Assembly (NCBI RefSeq): GCF_019173455.1
Contig: NZ_JADPQH010000002.1
Location: forward strand, 77,490 to 141,489
Source of the DNA: Nesterenkonia sp. Act20
Lineage (GTDB): Bacteria; Actinomycetota; Actinomycetes; Actinomycetales; Micrococcaceae
Direction of reading: 5' to 3'
Length of the DNA: 64,000 nt
Shown here: positions 3,329 through 13,604 of the stretch, one piece after another
Numbering within the stretch: position 1 is the first letter of the stretch
How the letters are laid out: each line of letters starts with the position of its first letter
Position numbers and translations under genes: made by a program
Notes under the pieces: generated by a model
The model's input: only the letters and a program-made list of their open reading frames with translations
Databases searched by the model: none
Told to the model about the DNA's origin: nothing

Positions 3329-3982
3329 CTAGAAGGCGGTGCTGGGCAGGTCCTTCTCACCATCGACGATCGCAGTGATGATCCGCGCTGCAACGTGGTC
3401 AGGATCCAGCGCCGCTCCGAATCGCGGGGCTGAGCCAGCGATCGGGTGCTCGGACAGTGAGGTGCCGGTGTGGCCGGGGCGGGCATCCACGAGTCGGATG
3501 CCTGCGCGCCGATACTCACGCGCCGCTGCGACGACGAAGGCCGCGAGCCCCGCTTTCGACGCCGAATATGCTGCCACTCCTGCGGTGGGTGTCTCCGCGA
3601 CCACCCCGCTCAGGGTGACTACGAAGGGCTCCCGGCCCTCATCTGCCGAGGCCGCAAGGTAGGACTGGCTCTGAGCGATGAGCTGGATCGCGCTGGTCGT
3701 GTTGACCGCGAACAGTTCTTCGACGGTGGCGGGTTCAAGCTCGGAGGCGGCTCCGAAGGCGACGACCCCAGAGGCCACTACCAGACCATCGAGCCGTCCG
3801 TGCTGCGCATGCGTGGAATCCAGCACCTCCCGAATCGCGGATGGATCGCGGAGGTCCTGACCAGAGGACTTCGAGGACCGAGCGACGATGGCGCCGTTGT
3901 CTTCGAGCTGCTCGGCGATCCGCGAGCCGAGCCCGCCGGTGGCACCTACTACCAGAACAACCGCACCCTCAAGATCTGTCAT
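3329..3982 (-). CDS. Short-chain dehydrogenase/reductase (SDR)
   Basis: A 217-residue Rossmann-fold NAD(P)-dependent oxidoreductase. The dinucleotide loop GATGGLG lies near residues 13-19, the family NAG motif is replaced by ASGVV, the catalytic serine is in TLSGVV, and the catalytic Tyr/Lys pair is YSASK (about 139-143) followed by RPGHTGT. An in-frame ATG at 4000 would add six residues; the start at 3982 gives the standard spacing to the glycine motif. At about 217 residues it is slightly short for the family (about 250). It is divergent from the saccharopine-dehydrogenase-like gene, with about 135 bases between the starts. The substrate is unknown. Confidence 0.85.
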   Translation of the reverse strand: MTDLEGAVVLVVGATGGLGSRIAEQLEDNGAIVARSSKSSGQDLRDPSAIREVLDSTHAQHGRLDGLVVASGVVAFGAASELEPATVEELFAVNTTSAIQLIAQSQSYLAASADEGREPFVVTLSGVVAETPTAGVAAYSASKAGLAAFVVAAAREYRRAGIRLVDARPGHTGTSLSEHPIAGSAPRFGAALDPDHVAARIITAIVDGEKDLPSTAF

Positions 3983-4116
3983 GGGTAGACCATAGATCAC
4001 GTGCAGCAGGCCGCGCCGAAAAAGTCGGTCCGCCGGAACGGTCTCGAGCTTCAGCGATCAGGAGAGGGATGCACTTTACGGCGCCGGTCCGGCCTCTGCT
4101 GTGGAAGACTGCCGGC

Positions 4117-5349
4117 ATGGAGGCCCCAATGCGCGACCACGACCTCGTCCTCTTTGGTGCGACCGGCTTTGTCGGGGAACTCATCGCCGGATACCTTGCG
4201 CACCACGCTCCACCGGACCTGCGAGTCGGACTCGCCGGGAGGTCGAGTGCAAAACTCGAAGCCGTACGGTCCAGACTGCCCGTCGCCGCTCATGACTGGG
4301 CCATCATTGAGGCCGATACGGGGCGCCCTGACTCGCTCGCGACCATGGCCGCGGGCACCAGAGTTCTCTTCACCACGGTGGGTCCCTACGCGAAATATGG
4401 TCTGCCGGTTGTCGAGGCGTGTGCCCGCGCCGGCACCCACTACGGGGACCTGACCGGAGAGGTGTCCTTCGTCCGCGAAGCTATCGACCGTTGGGATGCC
4501 CTCGCGAGGACTACAGGTGCACGGATCGTCCATGCGTGCGGCTACGACTCCGTCCCATCGGACCTCGCGGTGCTCCTCCTGCACCAGGCCGCGAAGGCTG
4601 ATGGCGCGGGCGGACTGACCGAGGTGCGGCTCGTTGCCAGGGCGAAGGGCGGTGTCAGCGGCGGCACCATCGAGTCCATGCGTGGGCAGCTCGACGGTAT
4701 CCGGACGGACCCTGTGCTGCGATCGCTCGCGGGCGATCCCTACTCCCTCAGTCCAGACCGGACGGCGGAGCCCACGACCCGGCAGCCTCCAGATCTCGGG
4801 TGGGTCGGCCGTTCGGATGACGGACCGTGGGTGGCTCCCTTCATCATGGCGTCGGTGAATTCGCGGATCGTACGTCGCAGCAATGCCCTTCAGGGTTGGG
4901 CCTACGGTAGGTCCCTGCGGTACGGCGAAGTGATGGGTATGGGGCGAGGGCCTGTCGGCGCCGTCGCCGCCGGGGCGACGGCGCTTGGCCTGCGGCTGTC
5001 CGGAGCCGCACTGGCCCTACCCTTCACGAGGAAATTACTGGACCGGGTCCTTCCCTCGCCCGGTGCGGGCCCGAGCAAGGCCGCGCGGCGCTCAGGCTGG
5101 TTCCACTCCCAGGTGGCTGCTTCCACGGAGAGCGGCCAGCGCTACCGTGTCATCGCAGCCGGGCCCGGCGATCCGGGGTACGCCGCCACCGCCGTCATGG
5201 CCGGGGAGACAGCGCTCGGACTTGCCCTCGACGGCGACCGTCTGCCGCCCGCCACAGGATCGCTGACCCCGGCGACCGCCCTCGGCAACATTCTGGTTGA
5301 GCGGCTGCGCGAGGCAGGACATACCTACGACATCACGTCACTCACCTGA
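4117..5349 (+). CDS. Saccharopine dehydrogenase-like / trans-acting enoyl reductase family protein
   Basis: A 410-residue protein with an N-terminal Rossmann fold (LVLFGATGFVG, about residues 11-20) and the rest of a saccharopine-dehydrogenase-like domain (LAGRSSAKL, TTVGPYAKYGLPVVEACARAG, YGDLTGE). Actinobacterial relatives include the mycobacterial trans-acting enoyl reductases and related lipid-modifying oxidoreductases. Motifs such as CGYDSVPSDL and KGGVSGGTI fit that group. A longer open frame runs upstream to 3841, but it overlaps the divergent SDR gene; the ATG at 4117 (or 4129) gives the family N-terminus. I infer a role in lipid or small-molecule reduction; the substrate is unknown. 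Confidence 0.82.
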   Translation: MEAPMRDHDLVLFGATGFVGELIAGYLAHHAPPDLRVGLAGRSSAKLEAVRSRLPVAAHDWAIIEADTGRPDSLATMAAGTRVLFTTVGPYAKYGLPVVEACARAGTHYGDLTGEVSFVREAIDRWDALARTTGARIVHACGYDSVPSDLAVLLLHQAAKADGAGGLTEVRLVARAKGGVSGGTIESMRGQLDGIRTDPVLRSLAGDPYSLSPDRTAEPTTRQPPDLGWVGRSDDGPWVAPFIMASVNSRIVRRSNALQGWAYGRSLRYGEVMGMGRGPVGAVAAGATALGLRLSGAALALPFTRKLLDRVLPSPGAGPSKAARRSGWFHSQVAASTESGQRYRVIAAGPGDPGYAATAVMAGETALGLALDGDRLPPATGSLTPATALGNILVERLREAGHTYDITSLT

Positions 5350-5590
5350 CGCCGGAAGTGAGGCACTGGTCGTGCTTAATATTCAGGGAGAAATCGGAGG
5401 CCCCTTCAGCAGGAGCCCCAGAGAGATGGAGTCGCTGGGCTGAGCAGTCACTATCCAAAGGCTCATCTCGCCCATGGAAGACGACCCCTTGCTGCGCTCA
5501 ACGATCATCGGCGGCAGCGGATTCAGTGGCTGAACCTGACCAGAAGAGGGCGATCCGAAAGAGATCAAGTCTGTGGTCAGGAGCTGATGC
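5350..5590. other. Spacer, former downstream flank of ychF
   Basis: Non-coding stretch between the saccharopine-dehydrogenase-like gene and the left attachment-like repeat. If the island reading is right, this DNA lay immediately downstream of ychF before the island inserted. An open minus-strand frame runs through it continuously from the IS3 fragment but has no recognisable content here. Confidence 0.4.
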
Positions 5591-5613
5591 CAAACGTTGA
5601 AGCGGAACTCCAC
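5591..5613 (-). repeat. Left attachment-like repeat (copy of ychF 3' end)
   Basis: On the minus strand this reads as VEFRFNV followed by TGG instead of the ychF stop TAG, that is, the exact last residues of YchF (VEFRFNV) displaced 6.9 kb from the gene. Against 12515-12536 only two of 22 bases differ. The shared 11-base core is CGGAACTCCAC. Confidence 0.65.
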
Positions 5614-5637
5614 CGCATTCCGACACGGAGTAACCTC

Positions 5638-5766
5638 TGAAGGCTCGGCGGCGGATTCGACGTGAACGCCGAAATCTTTCGCGATCTGCGCAATCGAAAC
5701 CCCTTCACGGTTCAGCGCGACCCGGACTACGTCGTCACGAAACTCTGTCGGATACGGCTTCGGCAT
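5638..5766 (-). pseudogene. Truncated IS3-family OrfA (transposase helix-turn-helix subunit)
   Basis: About 43 codons encode MPKPYPTEFRDDVVRVALNR followed by EGVSIAQIAKDFGVHVES, the N-terminus of the IS3-family OrfA with its first helix-turn-helix helices. The reading frame then leaves the family and runs into the attachment-like repeat. The rest of OrfA and all of OrfB are missing, so this is an inactive relic at the left end of the island. Confidence 0.7.
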
Positions 5767-6075
5767 GGTGACATCCTTCCAAGCCAGCCTTTCCTGGTAG
5801 CCCGGTTCGATGCCACCTATTCCTACAGCAAACCCTCACGACGGGTATCGGTGTCGTCGGCAAGGGGAATCTCCATCTCGTAGACGGGAGCGGGAACCTT
5901 CAGGTCACGCATGCACTGCCCGGAACATGGCCAGAGAGGTGACTGGAAGCCCGTAGATGCGACTGGACGGAAGCCAGGTCTCAGAAAAGGGCCCTCTACG
6001 TCTGGCTTCTCGGATGGGGTCCGCAGAAGCGGAAGCTGATGGGCTTACTCCCCTGAGCATAGCGAAGCGCGGGAA
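5767..6075. other. Spacer inside island, no recognisable gene
   Basis: About 300 bases between the IS3 relic and the zinc-ribbon gene. There is an 8-base inverted repeat (GAAGCCAG...CTGGCTTC, about 5971-6010), which could end transcription from the minus-strand operon that stops at 6076. I see nothing else. Confidence 0.35.
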
Positions 6076-6540
6076 CTAGAGCGCGAACGCCTGACCGCAG
6101 ACGAGGCAGTGAATAGGGCTAGTCGTGTCCTCTGGAACCTTGATCGGTTCCCAGCCGTGGCAGGGTGAAGCCACGATCATCATGTCGTCCGGTTCGGTGA
6201 GCGGGTCCGGCTCATCCGGGACATCGAGATGACCCGTCTGCTTGATGTTGAAATTCTTGCTACTCATGCCCTTGAATGCAGATCCCAACTCATCATCGAG
6301 TGCCTGAATGGCGGCCGGCATCGCCACGCCCTGCGTGTACTCCACTTGCTCGGTCGTCCACCACTGATCGGTCGCGGCGGCGACGCCGCAAAATGGACAG
6401 TAGTAGGCGTCGGCGGGCGGCTGGTTCTCAGCTTCCTCACTGGCGGGTCCGTCGTGCCACTTGAACTGTCGAGCACAGTTCGGGCACTCACGGCGAAGAA
6501 AATCGTCGTTGTCGAGAGGCAAGGACACGGGAATGTTCAT
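6076..6540 (-). CDS. Two-site zinc-ribbon protein, partner of the TIR-like gene
   Basis: A 154-residue protein of no named family that I recognise. Two zinc-ribbon knuckle sets are visible: Cys19/Cys22 with Cys48/Cys51 at the N-terminus (CPNC...CPFC), and Cys127-His128 with Cys145/Cys148 at the C-terminus (SPCHGW...HCLVC), joined by a helical, acidic middle. It begins one base after the stop codon of the upstream TIR-like gene (6542), so the two are surely co-transcribed and translationally coupled. The role is unknown; nucleic-acid or protein binding as an accessory or regulator of the TIR-like protein is my inference. Confidence 0.7.
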   Translation of the reverse strand: MNIPVSLPLDNDDFLRRECPNCARQFKWHDGPASEEAENQPPADAYYCPFCGVAAATDQWWTTEQVEYTQGVAMPAAIQALDDELGSAFKGMSSKNFNIKQTGHLDVPDEPDPLTEPDDMMIVASPCHGWEPIKVPEDTTSPIHCLVCGQAFAL

Positions 6541-6541
6541 C

Positions 6542-7435
6542 TCAATCTGCGCTCACAAATTCTTCTTGGTTGATTTCCAAGCCATCCGCTGTCTTCCCGA
6601 GTAGTCGGATGGTGAAATACGACCGATTGGAGCGGGCAAGGCTCGCTGGCATCCGCTGCAAGACCTTGACTGACTTGCCTGCCGGAAGCTGAGGTACTGG
6701 GCCTTCGTCGTGCCGACGCTCTAGATTGTGGTCCTCTCCAACCGGCTCAGCCGACAACTCGTACACAGTGCCCGGTCCGTGGTTTGTGACGATGACATCG
6801 GAGAGCTTGTTGCCGCCTCGTTCGTGCAGTCGAGCAGTCAGACGCGGAAGCCCCGCGCTCTGAGACGAAGGAAGCTTCCGCCCAAGCGGCAACCCTCCCC
6901 CAGGCGCACTAGGAGGAGTGAGGTCTCCCGCCGAATGCCAACTAGTCCCGTCGAGGTTCACGGCGCAACCGGCGTTGCGGAGTCGCATAGCCAAGTCCTG
7001 GCGCTTCGCGACTGAATTGTCGAGCCGCACGGCATGACGACCGTGGATGTCGCTGAAGACCTTCACCTGGCCGAGTTCGACCATGACGGTCCGTTCTGGG
7101 TTCCGACCCATCGCCATTCCCGCTTCGTAGAGCACATTCGGCCTTGGCTGCATCTGAGGCTGTGTCTCTGGATCACCGGGATAAGTCAGTGACTCATGCA
7201 GATGGGCGATGTCGTCGGGCGTTTGGAGAACCACCACTGCCTGAGCGCGCCGGAAGGCAGCGTCCAGAACGTCACCGATGTATGGCGAACCGCTACCTGT
7301 CATGGAGATGGCCTCCGACCACTCGATGGGCGCAAGGTTGATGGAGCGCAGGAAGTCGAACAAAGCTTCACGCGCCGGCTCATTGCGTCCGTGGATCACG
7401 AAAACGCTACGGGTATCGGCCTCAGAGTCGGTCAT
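6542..7435 (-). CDS. TIR-like (PF10137-type) predicted nucleotide-binding effector
   Basis: A 297-residue protein whose first ~140 residues match the predicted nucleotide-binding TIR-like family (CAP12/Pycsar-effector TIR type). Features are the opening strand VFVIHGRNEPAREALFDFL, the middle strand AQAVVVLQTPDD, and RPNVLYEAGMAMGR with a glutamate in the position of the TIR NADase catalytic residue, followed by SDIHGRHAVRLDN. A Pro/Gly linker then leads to a C-terminal beta-rich domain of about 125 residues that I do not recognise and that may sense the trigger. Family members deplete NAD+ in anti-phage defence. The ATG at 7435 has GGAGG almost touching it; an ATG at 7465 would add ten residues. 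Confidence 0.8.
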   Translation of the reverse strand: MTDSEADTRSVFVIHGRNEPAREALFDFLRSINLAPIEWSEAISMTGSGSPYIGDVLDAAFRRAQAVVVLQTPDDIAHLHESLTYPGDPETQPQMQPRPNVLYEAGMAMGRNPERTVMVELGQVKVFSDIHGRHAVRLDNSVAKRQDLAMRLRNAGCAVNLDGTSWHSAGDLTPPSAPGGGLPLGRKLPSSQSAGLPRLTARLHERGGNKLSDVIVTNHGPGTVYELSAEPVGEDHNLERRHDEGPVPQLPAGKSVKVLQRMPASLARSNRSYFTIRLLGKTADGLEINQEEFVSAD

Positions 7436-7465
7436 GCCTCCAAGAATACGATGAGCTAGCGACAT

Positions 7466-7934
7466 CGCGGTGAGTCTAGCGCCGGTGTCGGCGTGCGTTA
7501 CTCGTCGTTGCGACCTCCCGCGATCGAGGCGAGCTTCTGGAGGCAGACGCGGTTGTCACGGACATGACCGCCATCTCAGTGACGCTGGCTGACAGCGGCC
7601 CTGCCGTCATCACCGCAGACTAGGCCGTGCAGCCGCACACCGAAAACTCGCCTGGGCTCTGCCCGTTGGCGAGCCGAGGAGCCGCTGGCTGGGGCACGAG
7701 CTCCAAAGTTCGGGCAGCAAGAAGACGTCATACGGCAAAAACGGAACTCCACCACCACATTACGTAACCGAATAACATATGGTTCACGAGTTGCTTCTTG
7801 CCCGCTCGGAATACTGGCGGCGCTTCGCAGGCTTGGCGGAGGCGGAAATGCTCAGATATGACAAAAACGCTAATCGTCCAGAGCAGACAGACGCGAGCCT
7901 GGCGATCAACTTGCTCAAATCTGCTCGACTGTGA
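7466..7934. other. Spacer holding the middle attachment-like repeat
   Basis: About 470 bases without a supported gene. Around 7501-7622 a plus-strand frame (RGELLEADAVVTDM) faintly recalls the C-terminus of HAD-type phosphatases, but it is too short to call. The middle copy of the ychF-end repeat is at 7731-7752. The divergent starts at 7435 (minus) and 7935 (plus) must take their promoters from here. Confidence 0.4.
7731..7752 (-). repeat. Middle attachment-like repeat (degenerate ychF 3' end copy)
   Basis: It shares the 11-base core CGGAACTCCAC with 5603-5613 and 12526-12536; 16 of 22 bases match the ychF copy overall. The bases to its right (reaching GTAACC) resemble those to the right of the 5591 copy, which supports a second element boundary rather than a chance match. 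Confidence 0.5.
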
Positions 7935-8624
7935 ATGACTGCAAAGTGGTCGCTAAAGATGTTCTTGGCAGGACTTCAAAGCACCGCCCAACAGTTAGCG
8001 AGAGGTACGGTGAGCGAGGTGAGCGCTCCGGATGTCATGGTCGAGGACCAAAAGCTCTACATGCGCCAGATGGTCAGAGTAAAGCTTCGGCTCGAGGAAG
8101 CCAGGCACCTGCTGTACAAGGCGAAGAGAGACGAACGGGACCTGTTGTACGCCACGTTGCAGTTGCGCTTGGCGATAGAAGAGACCGCGTGCGCATCGCT
8201 CGTTGCCAATCGTACTTCTTTCGATGACGGACAGAGAGCATTCACGCTAAGAAAGTTCGAACACGTACAGAAGGCCTTGAAGGCACTCAATCCTGACTAC
8301 TGGCCCAATGGGATTTTCGAAGAAAGCCCTCAAGGCGGAATTCCTACAGTATGGACAGATAACCCCGACGCTCTGTCTGGATCTGAATGGATGAAAATGT
8401 GGGGCAAACTCAGTGAACGTCTCCACATGCGGAACCCCTGGGAAGCTCACCGGGATTTGTCTAGTGACGCCACTTTCCTGAGAGCTGTGCACTCCAAGCT
8501 AGTCAGGACCCTCAGTTCACATATCGTGACGTTGGTAGGTGGTGAACACCTCGTTATGGCGAGGCTGTGGAGCACTCCGGTTGAGGTTTACATTTTTACC
8601 GCCGTGGGCCCTGATCCTGCCTGA
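7935..8624 (+). CDS. Orphan island protein of unknown function
   Basis: A 229-residue soluble, largely helical protein with no signal or membrane segment. Residues about 45-110 (DQKLYMRQMVRVKLRLEEAR, then LYATLQLRLAIEETACASLV) form long amphipathic helices, and the C-terminal part ends in a hydrophobic VEVYIFTAVGPDPA. I do not recognise a family. The start lacks a clear ribosome binding site; an internal ATG eight codons downstream (7959) is an alternative. It lies alone between an attachment-like repeat and a minus-strand gene, inside an island with defence-like cargo. I infer it is expressed cargo, from its intact length only. Confidence 0.5.
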   Translation: MTAKWSLKMFLAGLQSTAQQLARGTVSEVSAPDVMVEDQKLYMRQMVRVKLRLEEARHLLYKAKRDERDLLYATLQLRLAIEETACASLVANRTSFDDGQRAFTLRKFEHVQKALKALNPDYWPNGIFEESPQGGIPTVWTDNPDALSGSEWMKMWGKLSERLHMRNPWEAHRDLSSDATFLRAVHSKLVRTLSSHIVTLVGGEHLVMARLWSTPVEVYIFTAVGPDPA

Positions 8625-8914
8625 CACGACCTCAATGGCCTCATGGCGTCCATCCGCACCAGCGGCTTGGTGGGCCTGTCACGCATTCCAAAGAACTGAT
8701 GCACCCTGCGCCCCGCGGAGCACACTGGTCAGGGTAACCGGGAATCTCACACAGCTTGTAGGTCAGATACTTCACCGTATGCACACGGGTCTAGACGTTG
8801 AGCCCCACCACGTTCAGAGATGAATTCACCGCTACGGCATGCGTCGGCTGGAGAATCGCCTCCCACGGCTATCGAACGTGCGTCCGAACCCGTTCGCCGC
8901 GCTACTGCCGAATG
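8625..8914. other. Intergenic spacer, no gene seen
   Basis: About 290 bases between two convergent genes. At 8791-8814 there is a CTAGACGTTGAGCC string that resembles the outer part of the ychF-end repeat by transitions only and lacks its 11-base core. I do not count it as an attachment site. Confidence 0.3.
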
Positions 8915-9466
8915 TCACACGAGCGGGTGCAACCGAGGGTTGCTGTCCGGCGGTAAATCCCAGCCATGTCGAGCGTGGAGCTTCTGTACGGCGTCGGCCG
9001 CGTGGGTTCGCAACCTCAACAAAACCCGACCTTCGAACCCCACCGAGCGGAAATGCCTGAGGTTTCCACTGAGTGCCTGCGCCCAGCTCATGACAGGGTC
9101 AAGATTTTTTAGATGCCGCTCAACCGTGTCACCGGGCTTCGCAACCTCCATCACCTGACGCCCAATCGTCGCGCCAAGGACACGCTCGGCTTCGAGCCAC
9201 TCATCAAGACCTTCCACCTCATGGAGCTCATCGACGAGCGCGATCATCGAGATTCTGAGGTTTGCCAGACGCTCCCCGATCGGCTCGGCGGTTGGGTCGA
9301 ACCCTATAAAGCGTTGCACCGCTTCTTGCAGGGCGGACCATCGCGCATCTGCAGACGCCCGCCGGGACTCATGCAACGCTTCTTTCGCGCGCTTATTCGA
9401 CAGGTAGGTGCCACCGAACGCGACACTCAACGACAACAAAGAGACAATCAGCGCGGTCACTTCCAT
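8915..9466 (-). CDS. Membrane-anchored protein of unknown function
   Basis: Taking the ATG at 9466, the protein has 183 residues: an N-terminal membrane helix (MEVTALIVSLLSLSVAFGGT), then a basic, helical coiled-coil-like stretch (SNKRAKEALHESRRASADAR) and a soluble helical domain on the cytoplasmic side. No family is recognised. A longer frame reaches 9622, but its extra 52 residues are Gly-rich and unlike a coding N-terminus. The gene is divergent from the DUF4062 gene at 9642, with about 175 bases between starts, so the two may share control. Small membrane-anchored helical proteins are common partners in defence cassettes; here that is only inference. Confidence 0.6.
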   Translation of the reverse strand: MEVTALIVSLLSLSVAFGGTYLSNKRAKEALHESRRASADARWSALQEAVQRFIGFDPTAEPIGERLANLRISMIALVDELHEVEGLDEWLEAERVLGATIGRQVMEVAKPGDTVERHLKNLDPVMSWAQALSGNLRHFRSVGFEGRVLLRLRTHAADAVQKLHARHGWDLPPDSNPRLHPLV

Positions 9467-9641
9467 TCCAACATCTTCACACAAAAAGGTGAGTTGCCCA
9501 CGTCCTGCGCCGGACCCTTGAATGCCCTGAAGATGGATCCAGAGTGGCACCGAGATCTTTTCATCGCCGCGACCCACTAGCACCGCCGCTCCCCCACGAC
9601 TCATGGAATCGCAGTCCCTCATGATGTGCTAGACATCTTTC

Positions 9642-10724
9642 ATGGATCGTCGCTATCAAGTCTTCGTCAGTTCAACCTTCACCGACCTGATCGAGGAGCG
9701 GAAACAGATCATCCAAGCGCTGCTGGAACTGGAATGCCTCCCGGCTGGCATGGAAATGTTCCCCGCTGCGGACGAGGACCAGTGGACACTCATCAAGGAG
9801 GTCATCGCCCAGAGCGACTTCTACGTGGTCGTGGTGGGCGGTCGCTACGGCACCGTGAGCGAGCAAGGCATGAGCTACACCGAAAGGGAGTACGACTACG
9901 CGGTGGAACTAGGCATCCCCGTCCTGGGGTTCATTCATGCGACTCCGGGAGACATCCCGGTCAAAAAGTCCGAACGGGACGCAGCAGCACAGCAGCGTCT
10001 AGAGGAGTTTCGTGCCAAGGTACGAATGAAACACGTGAGGACGTACACCGGGGCGGAGGACTTGGGTTCAAAGGTGTCCCGCGCCCTGAACATGGCGATG
10101 CGCCGGACCGATGCCGAGGGGTGGGTGCGGGGGCGTTATGCCATGACACCGGAAGTGCAGACCGAGGTGGCGCAGCTTCGCGCTCAGGTCGCCGAGCTGA
10201 AACAAGAGGCTCAGTCAGCAAACGTGGCAGACGTCAACATTCCCGACGACGTTGCTTCAGGCGAAGACCTGTACCAGATGGAATGCCTGGTGGCCTACTA
10301 CTCGGCCGAGGCGCTTCATGCCCAAGTAAATTTCCTTGAACCAGCAGAGGAGTTGCAACATTCAACCACGGTGCCTGTGACCTGGAATCAGATTATGAAG
10401 GAACTAGCACCCCGACTCCTAGACGAGGCAAGCGAGCGAGAGCTGGCCAAAGCCCTCGACGCCTACTCGCATCGATTGCTGGTCGGTGATCACCAAGAAC
10501 TGTTGCCCCCGGCGCGGGGCGAGATCGTGCACGTTGGAATTTCCACGCAGACCTTTGACGACATCATCATGCAACTGTTTGCGCTTAACGTTACAGCGCA
10601 CGGGACTAAGTCACGCGGTGATGCGGATGGAAACAAGTATTGGCGATTGACAAAAACTGGGCAGGACACCCTCCTCAGGCTGCGCGCCATCAAGAAGCCA
10701 GTCGCGACACCGCCCATTCCGTAA
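9642..10724 (+). CDS. DUF4062-domain protein
   Basis: A 360-residue protein. The first ~100 residues are a DUF4062 domain: YQVFVSSTFTDLIEERKQII, the PAGMEMFPA motif, SDFYVVVVGGRYGTV and the YTEREYDYAVELGIPVLGFI strand-helix. The fold of this domain is Rossmann/TIR-like, and DUF4062 proteins are found in prokaryotic conflict and signalling loci. A coiled-coil linker (TEVAQLRAQVAELKQEAQ, about 170-187) leads to a C-terminal helical region ending in a possible winged helix (DIIMQLFALNV...YWRLTKTGQDTLLRLRA). It is divergent from the membrane-anchored protein gene. A sensor/effector role in defence is inferred from family and island context. Confidence 0.75.
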   Translation: MDRRYQVFVSSTFTDLIEERKQIIQALLELECLPAGMEMFPAADEDQWTLIKEVIAQSDFYVVVVGGRYGTVSEQGMSYTEREYDYAVELGIPVLGFIHATPGDIPVKKSERDAAAQQRLEEFRAKVRMKHVRTYTGAEDLGSKVSRALNMAMRRTDAEGWVRGRYAMTPEVQTEVAQLRAQVAELKQEAQSANVADVNIPDDVASGEDLYQMECLVAYYSAEALHAQVNFLEPAEELQHSTTVPVTWNQIMKELAPRLLDEASERELAKALDAYSHRLLVGDHQELLPPARGEIVHVGISTQTFDDIIMQLFALNVTAHGTKSRGDADGNKYWRLTKTGQDTLLRLRAIKKPVATPPIP

Positions 10725-11030
10725 TCTGCGGGTTTTGCCTGTGTCGGTCGACGACTCCACCCTGGAGGCAACCAAGCTGACAAGCTTTGGATCTCAGTCC
10801 GGCCCAGAACTTCGTGCGACTCGGACCGCGTGACCTCCGTCGGCACGGTAGCTCCCGTTCCCGCGAAGTCCGGTCTCGACCCACTATGTGGACCTGGGGG
10901 ACGTGGTGCCGTACAGCTCACCCGTGCCGCCTAGGAGGGTGATCCAGACAATCAACAGCGATGTTCTTACGCCAGACAAAACCTTGCCACGTCGCCGTCT
11001 CCAGCGAAGTTCGAACGTTTCCGCTGCTAA
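10725..11030. other. Intergenic spacer between convergent genes
   Basis: About 305 bases lie between the DUF4062 gene and the HEPN-motif gene. I see no coding frame, tRNA or strong hairpin. The short frames here lack start signals. Confidence 0.35.
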
Positions 11031-11942
11031 TCAACTCTTCCAGTGCGACCCGAATAGGCCTTCGGCGTCCTGCAGGTTGTTGCTGAGTGACTCGAGCAAC
11101 TCGATTCGAGACGCGTTGGTCGCTGCCGGGCGCGTTTCCAACCAAGTGGCGAGCAACAAATAGTACGACGCCAAAAACATGAAAAATGGGTGAGTGTAGG
11201 TTCGCAGGGTAGCGTCGCTGCTTACAAAAGGGGAGAATGAAGAGCCGTGGAAACGTTCATTTCGGGCTGTGTAAAGTAGCAGGAGAACAAGAAAACGAGC
11301 GAGAGACGTTTCGTCTAGCTTAAACTCGCCACTCTCCCCCAGCGTGAGGCTCTCGCCTCTCAGCGCACGTCGCAACAGCATTGCGCCCTTCCGCCGATCG
11401 CCGGGAGACGAACTATTGCCGAATGTCTCCCTCAGGTATTCAAAAAGATGACGTAGAGCCGGAGTTGTCCTACCGTGAAACCGACTCATTAGTCCCGGCT
11501 CCGCCTGATCTGCGAGAAAATCCTCGACGAGTCGCTTGTACGCAAACTCGCACGTCTGAACCGGAACGCCAGAACATATGGCTCCGACAACAGCCGGGTC
11601 CAACCGAACTGATGCGCTCTCGAGTCGATCAGTGATACGTCTACCTTCGAACTGCGTGGTTTCGAGCTCGAAAGCTTTCCAGGTCGAGTCGAATGCCTGG
11701 TCAACCCGTGTTGGAAGGGAGTCGAAGGCGTCGATTAGGTAGCTCAACTCGCGATGAAACTCCACATCTTCGAGATTATTCAGCACTACAGGCCTGAAGA
11801 AAGTCCCTGTCTTTGACGCCACTCTATCCGCGAATGCCTGCTCAATTGGTAACGGAGAACGTCGTTCGAGTACCCCCGATTCGGCCCATCGCTCTATTGC
11901 GCTCAAGCGCCGGGCCCGTTCGAAAGTAGGTTCATATTTCAA
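11031..11942 (-). CDS. HEPN-motif protein, probable RNase effector of a two-gene module
   Basis: A 303-residue helical protein. Near the C-terminus the sequence LLLLYTARNERFHGSSFSP contains Arg227-Asn228-x3-His232, the RNxxxH active-site motif of HEPN ribonucleases, in the sequence setting (helix, RN..H-G, then Ser/Thr and a second helix with HPFFMFLASYYLLL) seen in Apea-like HEPN proteins. The N-terminal 200 residues match no family I know. Its ATG overlaps the end of the upstream gene by four bases (ATGA), so translation is coupled. Codon use is distinctly less G/C-rich than in the core genes. RNase activity and a defence role are inferred from the motif and context. Confidence 0.65.
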   Translation of the reverse strand: MKYEPTFERARRLSAIERWAESGVLERRSPLPIEQAFADRVASKTGTFFRPVVLNNLEDVEFHRELSYLIDAFDSLPTRVDQAFDSTWKAFELETTQFEGRRITDRLESASVRLDPAVVGAICSGVPVQTCEFAYKRLVEDFLADQAEPGLMSRFHGRTTPALRHLFEYLRETFGNSSSPGDRRKGAMLLRRALRGESLTLGESGEFKLDETSLARFLVLLLLYTARNERFHGSSFSPFVSSDATLRTYTHPFFMFLASYYLLLATWLETRPAATNASRIELLESLSNNLQDAEGLFGSHWKS

Positions 11943-12484
11943 TTCTTAACCCCACAATTTGATCTACTTCTCATTTTCGGGAGGCGCACTACGAGACCAC
12001 TATTGACTTTACCCACCAAAGAGAACCGATTCGGCTCTAGCGAATGAACCCGAAGTTCGTCTAGAACAGTTGCCGGGTCAACTCGAGTTCCCACAAGAGC
12101 ATCCGAACCTGCTCGGTGCGTCGCGGTCTGCTGCCCCCGGTACACCTCAACGCGAGTGCCTTCTTCAATTGCGCGGCGACAGACGGCGCGGCAGTAGTAC
12201 GCGACGAACTGTCCGTCGCCGAGCGCCGACGCGGCGTCGCGGAAATTGACCCTTTTTCCGTCGCTCTGAACCTTCAAAAACACACCCGCCGAAGCTAATG
12301 CCTTGCTGAGCGAGTCGGCATCACCGCTGCCAAATGCATCTCGCTGTGCGTCAAAGTACAGGGTGTTCGATCCCGGGAGCGCTCGCGCGCTGATATATAC
12401 GCGCCCATGAGCTACGTCGTCCTCAAACTCCTCGAGCATCAGATCACGTGTCGTCGAGTCGAGGTCCTCGAATATGAAAGTCAT
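11939..12484 (-). CDS. Upstream partner of the HEPN-motif protein, unknown function
   Basis: A 181-residue soluble protein (opening MTFIFEDLDSTTRDLMLEEF) with no family I can name, no Cys cluster and no membrane segment. The middle (GDGQFVAYYCRAVCRRAIEE) looks like an amphipathic helix and the C-terminus is basic (RLPKMRSRSNCGVKN). It is the first gene of a two-gene operon and overlaps the HEPN-motif gene by four bases. Only 28 bases separate its start from the ychF stop, so its promoter lies inside or at the end of ychF, or it is read from the ychF transcript. By position it could be an antitoxin, sensor or adaptor; nothing in the sequence decides this. Confidence 0.6.
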   Translation of the reverse strand: MTFIFEDLDSTTRDLMLEEFEDDVAHGRVYISARALPGSNTLYFDAQRDAFGSGDADSLSKALASAGVFLKVQSDGKRVNFRDAASALGDGQFVAYYCRAVCRRAIEEGTRVEVYRGQQTATHRAGSDALVGTRVDPATVLDELRVHSLEPNRFSLVGKVNSGLVVRLPKMRSRSNCGVKN

Positions 12485-12512
12485 GCTCCGCTGTCTCTAT
12501 TTCTGGCCGGAA

Positions 12513-12536
12513 CTAAACGTTAAACCGGAACTCCAC
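12513..12536 (-). repeat. ychF 3' end acting as right attachment-like repeat
   Basis: The last codons of ychF (VEFRFNV, TAG) form the reference copy of the repeat found at 5591-5613 and 7731-7752. Insertion at a gene's 3' end with regeneration of the coding sequence is the classic pattern for tyrosine-recombinase islands. Confidence 0.6.
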
Positions 12537-13604
12537 GACGTCGCCGTCCTTCATGACGTAGTCCTTGCCTTCGATCCGGACCTTGCCCGCGGACTTGGCC
12601 TCGGCCATCGATCCCGCCGCCACCAGGTCATCGAAGTTGACGATCTCGGCCTTGATGAAGCCGCGCTGGAAGTCGGTGTGGATCACGCCGGCTGCCTCGG
12701 GCGCCGTCGCACCCTGGTTGACGGTCCAGGCGCGGGTCTCTTTGGGACCGGCGGTGAGGTAGGTCTGCAGCCCGAGCGTGGAGAAGCCGACGCGGGCCAG
12801 CTGGTCCATGCCGGACTCTTCCTGCCCGTTGAGCTCGAGCATCTCGCGGGCCTCCTCTTCGGAGAGCTCCACCAGATCCGCCTCGAGCTTCGCATCGAGG
12901 AACACTGCGTCTGCCGGGGCGACCGATGCGGCGAGCTCGGCCTGCTTCTCGGGAGAATTCAGCACGCCCTCATCGGCGTTGAACACGTAGATGAAGGGCT
13001 TGGCCGTCAGCAGGTTCAGCTGGGCGAGGTGTTCCATCTCCAGCTTGTCCTTGGTGATGGAGCTGAAGATCGTGTCGCCGCGCTCCAGCGTCTTCTGCGC
13101 CTTGAGGTAGGCATCAAGCGTGGCCTGCTCGGCTTTGCGCCCCTTGACCTGCTTCTCCAGCTTCGGGATCGCGTTCTCCATGGTCTGGAGATCGGCCAGG
13201 ATCAGCTCGGTGTTGATGGTCTCCATGTCCGAGGTGGGATCCACCTTGCCGTCCACGTGGATGACGTTCTCGTCCTCGAACACGCGGACCACCTGGGCGA
13301 TCGCATGGGCCTCACGGATAGTCGCCAGGAACTGGTTGCCCAGGCCCTCCCCCTCAGAAGCACCCTTGACGATGCCCGCGATGTCCACAAAGGAAACCGT
13401 GGCCGGCAGAATCTTCTGCGAACCGAAGATCTTCGCCAGCGCGTCCAGGCGCTCGTCGGGGAGGTTCACGATGCCCACGTTCGGCTCGATCGTGGCGAAC
13501 GGATAGTTCGCCGCCAGGATCGACTGACGAGTCAGCGCATTAAAGAGGGTCGACTTGCCCACATTGGGGAGTCCCACGATTCCGATAGTCAAAGCCACGG
13601 TCAC
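12513..13604 (-). CDS. ychF: Redox-regulated ATPase YchF (Obg-family)
   Basis: A 363-residue TRAFAC-class P-loop NTPase of the Obg/YchF group, which prefers ATP over GTP and binds ribosomes. Visible are the P-loop GLPNVGKST (residues 10-18), the switch I region [12 protein letters not shown], the Walker B/G3 DIAG, the Q-F-L-A-T-I-R G4-side helix, a coiled-coil insertion ([15 protein letters not shown]) and the C-terminal TGS domain ending [13 protein letters not shown]. It is full length and intact despite the island at its 3' end. The upstream 268 bases form a divergent promoter region with betT. Confidence 0.97.

Follow-up and report, generated by a model that had tools for sequence, protein, structure and literature searches.

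Staphylococcal cassette chromosome (SCC) elements, moved by the serine recombinases CcrAB or CcrC, target the conserved gene rlmH at its 3′ end and form composite tandem elements that include units without a recombinase. Integron arrays and clusters of attC sites lacking integrases (CALIN) consist of small cassettes, rich in toxin–antitoxin (TA) and resistance-like genes, that are common to several genera; to our knowledge, integrons are rare in actinobacteria. The streptococcal cis-mobilizable elements (CIMEs) are mostly tyrosine-integrase systems. The nearest published system found is the family of ssrA islands in Dehalococcoides, which has a CcrB-like recombinase, serial 3′-end repeats and islands without integration modules, and for which accretion has been proposed (PMC3146451). 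Here, a row of cassettes behind ychF is described in Nesterenkonia sp. Act20, within a stretch of 64,000 nucleotides referred to as the window (contig NZ_JADPQH010000002.1, positions 77,490 to 141,489). The window holds an integrase-less array of two cassettes and an older third. Its builder was quite probably a dedicated large serine recombinase (LSR) with the 3′ end of ychF as its attB. The argument is drawn from sequence and combines the sites, their linkage to ychF, exchange at GT, cassettes common to several genera, an LSR family in other genera and altered ychF tails. The most likely maker of these cassette rows, which are common in the order, is the LSR found beside ychF in related bacteria.

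No paper on ychF cassette arrays was found in searches of an open-access library. Pneumococcal prophages sit upstream of ychF and represent another system (PMC10383233, PMC8637289), an island of Streptomyces undergoes modular excision by a tyrosine recombinase (PMC4057263), and ychF is mentioned 0 times in the consulted text of PMC10083194.

In the window, ychF (12513..13604, minus strand) terminates in VVEFRFNV, and the core CGGAACTCCAC occurs exactly at 12526-12536, 7742-7752 and 5603-5613, on one strand in all three cases. This 11-mer alone is weak evidence: with one mismatch allowed, four matches were counted against 1.55 expected, and four were reached in 5 of 100 shuffles. It becomes decisive through the relatives, in which the repeat lengthens to 46 bp, composed of 22 bases, GT and another 22 bases, with a consensus of about GGTTATTCGGCTACGGAACGTG-GT-GGAGTTCCGSTTCAACGTSTAG. 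The right half of this site is the ychF 3′ end, and the left half is common to the copies and foreign to ychF. If the ychF-derived halves are written B and B′ and the foreign left arm P, site 1 (12513..12558, minus strand; GT at 12535-12536) would be attB-like (B|B′); the last 24 bases of ychF hold GT and B′, and the gene has a native FRFNV tail. Site 2 (7728..7777) and site 3 (5590..5635; GT at 5612-5613), both on the minus strand, would be of the attR type (P|B′). The ychF-end repeats at this locus are real, as the original prediction had it: 20 of 22 bases match in the copy at 5591, and the weaker copy at 7742, which carries indels, is confirmed too. A matrix for the whole site gives the ychF end 36 bits and site 3, which was itself one of the matrix seeds, 58 bits; array sites mostly reach 40-65 bits and ychF ends 22-42 bits. 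Site 2 retains the entire left arm together with an extra GTG triplet and an extra T, was missed by the ungapped matrix, and scores 27 bits once one triplet is skipped. For its right half, ychF tails of the FRFAV type give a better alignment than those of the FRFNV type. Matches above 14 bits numbered 0 in block-shuffled loci (20 rounds), and the real loci gave none on the opposite strand.

The same site recurs well beyond the window. A ychF match was present in 29 of 30 Nesterenkonia genomes, and at a threshold of 39 bits a further site stood behind ychF in 17 of these 29 loci, with at least two in 11; the reverse strand gave 0. Part of the training set of the matrix came from these loci, some of which are short where contigs end. 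In an even draw of the order, a strict pattern (at most one mismatch) matched 96 of 396 genomes, with 0 matches to a reversed-pattern control among the matches listed, and in a phylum-wide set it matched 4 of 396. Eighty of the 96 genomes were checked for ychF. Among the sites listed for them, 122 of 138 lay on the ychF contig, all downstream of the gene and on its strand, at distances of 0.5-28.6 kb (median 3.2 kb), in agreement with the proposal that the ychF 3′ end serves as the attachment site; a few matching genomes fell outside this comparison. The other 16 were on other contigs of nine draft genomes, and none was elsewhere on a ychF contig. Insertion at the 3′ end of ssrA was not encountered, the 122 sites on ychF contigs all being behind ychF. 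A contig-wide scan with the pattern returned at least 119 stretches, actinobacterial by label except for one contig labelled as a Bacillota metagenome-assembled genome (L172). That contig carries sites and a cassette 96% identical to one from Nesterenkonia and is probably misbinned. Viral contigs gave 0 exact pattern matches. Three plasmid records carried the pattern and none was taken as genuine, two after inspection and the third on account of its 11.85-Mb size. NZ_LR134459.1 (Tsukamurella), labelled a plasmid, has ychF among ordinary chromosomal genes, and NZ_LN868939.1 (Nocardia farcinica), similarly labelled, measures 2.66 Mb; both are probably pieces of chromosome.

Additional ychF-like sequences were also seen. 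Two genomes carry, downstream of ychF, incomplete duplicates of the gene's 3′ part (from residue 197 or 219 to 363; G216:C1:419151-433988 and G315:C54:3802-4236), which gives the impression that larger stretches of the gene were captured. In Gulosibacter sediminis, two ychF-like genes occur on one contig (G086:C36:85543-86568 and 7838-8857), matched over residues 3-346 only; one of them is 86% identical to the Nesterenkonia protein.

Comparison with relatives also placed the limits of the array, which is larger than the original prediction claimed. The stretch at about 4061-5589 had been assigned to the outer flank, but six relatives (L032, L033, L034, L038, L050 and L046) have it as a cassette of its own between sites, the site of L046 being weak (27 bits). 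The window has lost the outer site that relatives keep. The expected junction between that flank and ychF is largely present: in L033, L034, L036 and L046, no more than about 50 bp separate the ychF stop from the start of homology to window positions about 5376-5379 and outward; L034 additionally matches window 5551-5599, and the stretch between is absent there. The flank, however, is the end of the older cassette, and the empty state is instead seen in L031, in which ychF is followed directly by an SDR gene. Tandem accretion agrees with the window, where the sites bound successive cassettes. The description of the island as AT-richer holds in part: GC content is 53-62% at 5.5-12.5 kb against 64-71% at 3.0-5.5 kb, but it is 58-66% at 12.5-14.5 kb and 54-60% at 0-3 kb. 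The att sites are kept in the window, and scans of its open reading frames (ORFs) with Pfam, PADLOC and NCBIfam found no recombination or transfer genes and no LSR, consistent with the earlier statement that no integrase is present.

The point of exchange was mapped by pairs of sites with one flank identical and the other different; these pairs lack independence, and orthologous ychF ends are among them. In 11 of 14 left-identical pairs there is no mismatch from −3 to +2, and the first difference falls between +3 and +15. Similarly, 8 of 12 right-identical pairs are identical from +1, save for isolated differences at +12 or +21, and diverge from −1, −2 or further left. The exchange thus maps to GT, the dyad centre of CGGAACnnnGTnGAGTTCCG. 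An overlap of 2 bp is the rule for serine recombinases, and exchange at the central GT therefore predicts an enzyme of this class; by itself, the GT crossover leaves room for other enzymes.

Tyrosine recombinases are one such class, and the locus had at first been read as a typical tyrosine-recombinase island, inserted at a gene 3′ end and since deprived of its integrase. Insertion at 3′ ends with direct repeats is usual for islands of this kind, and proteins matching PF00589 are encoded elsewhere in all 12 genomes searched. Every one of these matches, however, lies outside the ychF-downstream stretches examined. A hidden Markov model (HMM) for tyrosine recombinases found none in 121 loci and one 93-aa fragment in a second set, later loci not having been searched, so that the expectation of tyrosine integrases beside ychF in relatives failed save for that fragment. 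Genome G012 has a site behind ychF, yet its only two PF00589 proteins are presumably XerC and XerD. The exchange at GT and the presence of an LSR family at the site instead also speak against a tyrosine-recombinase island, which is very improbable.

An HMM built from local serine recombinases identified LSRs beside ychF in other genera. Five full-length ychF LSRs constitute one family with mutual identities of 45.8-84%; they share about 26-36% with LSRs elsewhere in Nesterenkonia over long alignments, and more only over short N-terminal pieces. Resolvase and Recombinase domains were present in three tested members of the family, from related genera. In NCBIfam, one LSR matched CcrB best at 80.3 bits (cut-off 900), followed by CcrC at 48.9 bits (900) and CcrA at 46.4 bits (700), and reached none of these cut-offs for SCC recombinases (ccrA, ccrB, ccrC). 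The family was detected in at least 12 of the 396 order genomes at E<1e-70, a count that is possibly low because three candidates per genome were scored. At E<1e-90 it was found in eight of 396, two of them source genomes of the seed sequences. Seven of the eight have the LSR within 15 kb downstream of ychF, and the eighth has it on another contig; three of them stand 43 bp (G288), 61 bp (G215) and 182 bp (G207) from ychF. The start of the LSR adjoins a site in six loci, in three of which the LSR is truncated. A relaxase (PF03432) is encoded in two LSR elements tested, and relaxase homologues in two more. Arthrobacter loci encode, in addition to the LSR, a small serine recombinase (82-86% identical; L244:10825-11409, L254:8083-8925 and L256:6639-7223), which recalls DsiA or CcrA. 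The LSRs elsewhere in Nesterenkonia were considered and set aside, as they belong to other families and have no site in the surrounding 9-kb stretches. Resolvases of PF00239 beside Nesterenkonia arrays amounted to one only, about 18 kb from ychF in G021.

The ychF tail itself differs where an LSR is present. In LSR-bearing loci the tail after GT is altered, VVEFR-FNV becoming VVEFR-HGITSAxQGKK, TGLTSKK and similar. All 14 ychF loci with an LSR, pieces below 100 residues being left out here and in the following count, have an altered tail. Of the 55 distinct loci that extend 8 kb or more beyond ychF, 17 have attL-like tails, 14 of them with an LSR within 20 kb, and 37 have native tails, 0 of them with an LSR within that distance; one tail was unclassified. 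The corresponding Fisher value of 2e-10 is only a guide, because the loci were partly chosen for an LSR and are related. The reverse complement of the new tail half resembles the left arm of the array sites, so attP would be a palindrome around GT, and the two halves assigned to it match each other. On a matrix for the left arm (P half), attL-like tail halves score −2.4 to 25.1 bits; 73 FNV-type tails score −4.0 or less (median −12.9), and random 22-mers reach −1.7 bits at the 99.9th percentile. Accordingly labelled, array junctions would be attR (P|B′), altered tails attL (B|P′) and native tails attB (B|B′). The array junctions are of the P|B′ type, which is the type that the matrix was built to find; the near-absence of P|P′ junctions fits the expectation of this model. 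In the integrase-less arrays of the set, the ychF tail is mostly native. Three Nesterenkonia genomes (G001, G004 and G013) have attL-like tails of 25.1, 7.0 and 2.1 bits and no family LSR in the stretch examined.

The 181 loci, of which 161 had a site scoring above 33 bits, were cut from GT to GT and yielded 188 cassettes with a median of 1.47 kb; some regions were taken twice, so same-genus pairs at 100% are partly duplicates. Whole-cassette pairs across genus labels numbered 18, of which 15 are 94.9-99.8% identical, and 14 of these 15 are equal in length. A 1,313-bp cassette is common to Microbacterium, Nocardia, Brevibacterium and Brachybacterium, one of 1,392 bp to Kocuria, Ornithinimicrobium and Gulosibacter, and one of 1,167 bp to Nesterenkonia and Brachybacterium. 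The neighbours on both sides differ in 11 of the 15 pairs and the one examined side differs in three; one pair (Kocuria/Ornithinimicrobium) has its upstream neighbour in common. These pairs bear on the view that the arrays are dead remnants, inherited and reshuffled by ordinary homologous recombination between ychF-like repeats. The indels in window site 2 and the loss of the outermost site would suit such decay, as would the lack of any family LSR in 30 Nesterenkonia genomes. Set against this are the high identity and equal length of cassettes across genera, their differing neighbours and the switches at GT, and the arrays are unlikely to be mere remnants of that kind.

A simple ORF caller found 416 genes in the cassettes, 282 in the direction of ychF and 134 antisense, with up to 11 genes per cassette. 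HigA-like antitoxins are represented by 28 genes under 17 labels, and HigB, FitA/PIN pairs, ParE, Phd/YefM, GNAT and alpha/beta hydrolase families also recur. AadA-like and Lnu-like nucleotidyltransferases recur as well, with scores below the NCBIfam cut-offs. Some larger cassette genes match defence families, and one tested gene had no match. At L047:2046-8961, a ychF cassette region of Nesterenkonia, two large genes match DrmD-like and TmtA-like defence models. In size and in cargo (TA pairs, GNAT, nucleotidyltransferases) the cassettes resemble those of integrons, in which an IntI-type enzyme moves cassettes via folded attC sites, and the arrays could be pictured as a CALIN of that type. 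The arrays searched, however, had no tyrosine recombinase except the 93-aa fragment, the site forms an inverted repeat centred on GT, one half of it coming from ychF, and antisense genes (134 of 416) and cassettes of up to 11 genes do not favour an integron. An integron-like system is hardly credible and the least probable of the explanations considered.

The preferred explanation, rows built by the ychF LSR, suggests the following course of events. Serine integrases recombine attP with attB, and attL with attR when a directionality factor is present (PMC3783163). An LSR element, in some hosts with a relaxase too, would integrate by attP × attB and turn the ychF tail into attL (B|P′). On excision, attL could pair with any downstream attR, so that neighbouring cassettes would be picked up. 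Once integrated elsewhere, the LSR element might excise alone, so that the cassettes would stay in place and ychF would regain its native tail. On this view the window would be a deposit of that kind, without an integrase and possibly mobilizable when an LSR element enters ychF. Pick-up and drop-off of cassettes are extrapolated from known serine-integrase reactions. Because two elements have a relaxase and three Arthrobacter elements a small second serine recombinase, an integrative and mobilizable element (IME) may act as the shuttle; the relaxase in two LSR elements is only suggestive of descent from an IME or an integrative and conjugative element and of mobilization through accretion.

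Several observations weigh against this scheme. The GT crossover is blurred by mismatches in 7 of 26 pairs: three of the 14 left-identical pairs are mismatched left of the core (L043/L049, L128/L148 and L136/L201), and four of the 12 right-identical pairs inside the core, three of which involve one site (L048:4000). No LSR of the family was found in the 30 Nesterenkonia genomes, where 12 genomes gave weaker partial matches (best 2e-62), none near ychF; for this reason the action of the enzyme in Nesterenkonia is presumed from other genera. Of four weaker LSR matches in the order, two are downstream of ychF and two are not near it. In several loci (e.g. L240, L244, L251, L256, L279, L282 and L283) no ychF-like half comes after the P half next to the LSR, which the model leaves unexplained. 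The tail halves score only −2.4 to 6.3 bits in 4 of 14 LSR loci (L282, L242, L243 and L280), and native tails are kept in L250, which has an LSR remnant, and L286, whose LSR is on another contig. No intact attP was found: a P-GT-P′ scan of all loci gave two weak matches, and the palindrome was assembled from two halves. Finally, a circular form, excision and recombination are predicted from sequence only, and pick-up and drop-off are putative.

Cassette A of the window (7753..12534, minus strand; about 4.8 kb) lies between sites 1 and 2, and no recombinase was found in it. It encodes proteins of 181 aa (11939..12484, minus), 303 aa (11031..11942, minus) and 229 aa (7935..8624, plus) without a match in Pfam, PADLOC or NCBIfam, and a 360-aa DUF4062 protein (9642..10724, plus; PF13271, 9e-29). 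A further protein of about 213 aa (8915..9556, minus) has no Pfam match; its homologues (57-67% identity) come from loci with sites in Rothia (L158), Kocuria (L095) and two other Nesterenkonia (L049, L214). Cassette B (5614..7752, minus strand; about 2.1 kb), between sites 2 and 3 and likewise without a recombinase found, encodes a defence-like TIR protein of the CAP12/PCTIR type (6542..7465, minus; PF10137, 3e-27; PDC-S35) and a 154-aa PDC-M14A-like protein (6076..6540, minus; 2.6e-18). The older third cassette (4061..5589, minus strand; inner limit approximate) holds a saccharopine-dehydrogenase-like gene (ORF 3841-5349, plus). A fragment beside site 3, which resembles an insertion sequence and to which Pfam gave no name, was dropped as a part of the element: homologues stand near sites elsewhere, and its position is not fixed.

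If the proposed reading is true, it provides a route by which small cargo, such as TA, defence, acetyltransferase and nucleotidyltransferase genes, crosses actinobacterial genera. In addition, hotspots could be predicted at ychF in roughly one in four of the order genomes sampled, a serine integrase with predicted attachment sites is offered, and the question is raised of what a swapped C-terminus does to a conserved ATPase. In the broader picture, to which slightly better than even chances are given, actinobacteria would have an integron-like cassette economy run by a serine integrase: LSR elements, mobilizable and docking at a shared site in the ychF 3′ end, would pick up and drop integrase-less cassettes across genera, and the ychF C-terminus would record whether the shuttle is docked (...KK) or gone (FNV).

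Among known systems, the integron and CALIN arrays are like the ychF arrays in their small, TA-rich cassettes that cross genera; unlike them, no IntI was found at the ychF arrays searched, and the site combines a GT core with a half taken from ychF. Similarly, the streptococcal CIMEs are flanked by att sites, lack an integrase, lie behind the 3′ end of a gene and are mobilized by an incoming element (PMC7563491), whereas the ychF cassette arrays are longer and their cassettes cross genera. SCC differs in its target gene and phylum, and the ychF LSR reaches 80 bits on a CcrB model whose cut-off is 900. The ssrA islands of Dehalococcoides (DsiB/DsiA) share with the ychF arrays a CcrB-like LSR, a tandem arrangement at an essential gene's 3′ end and units without an integration module (PMC3146451). 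Some ychF elements, like the ssrA islands, also have a second serine recombinase of roughly 200 aa. In contrast to those islands, the ychF arrays use ychF as target, consist mostly of 1-2 kb cassettes, occupy one site across many genera, and occur with a ychF tail that is altered where the LSR is present.

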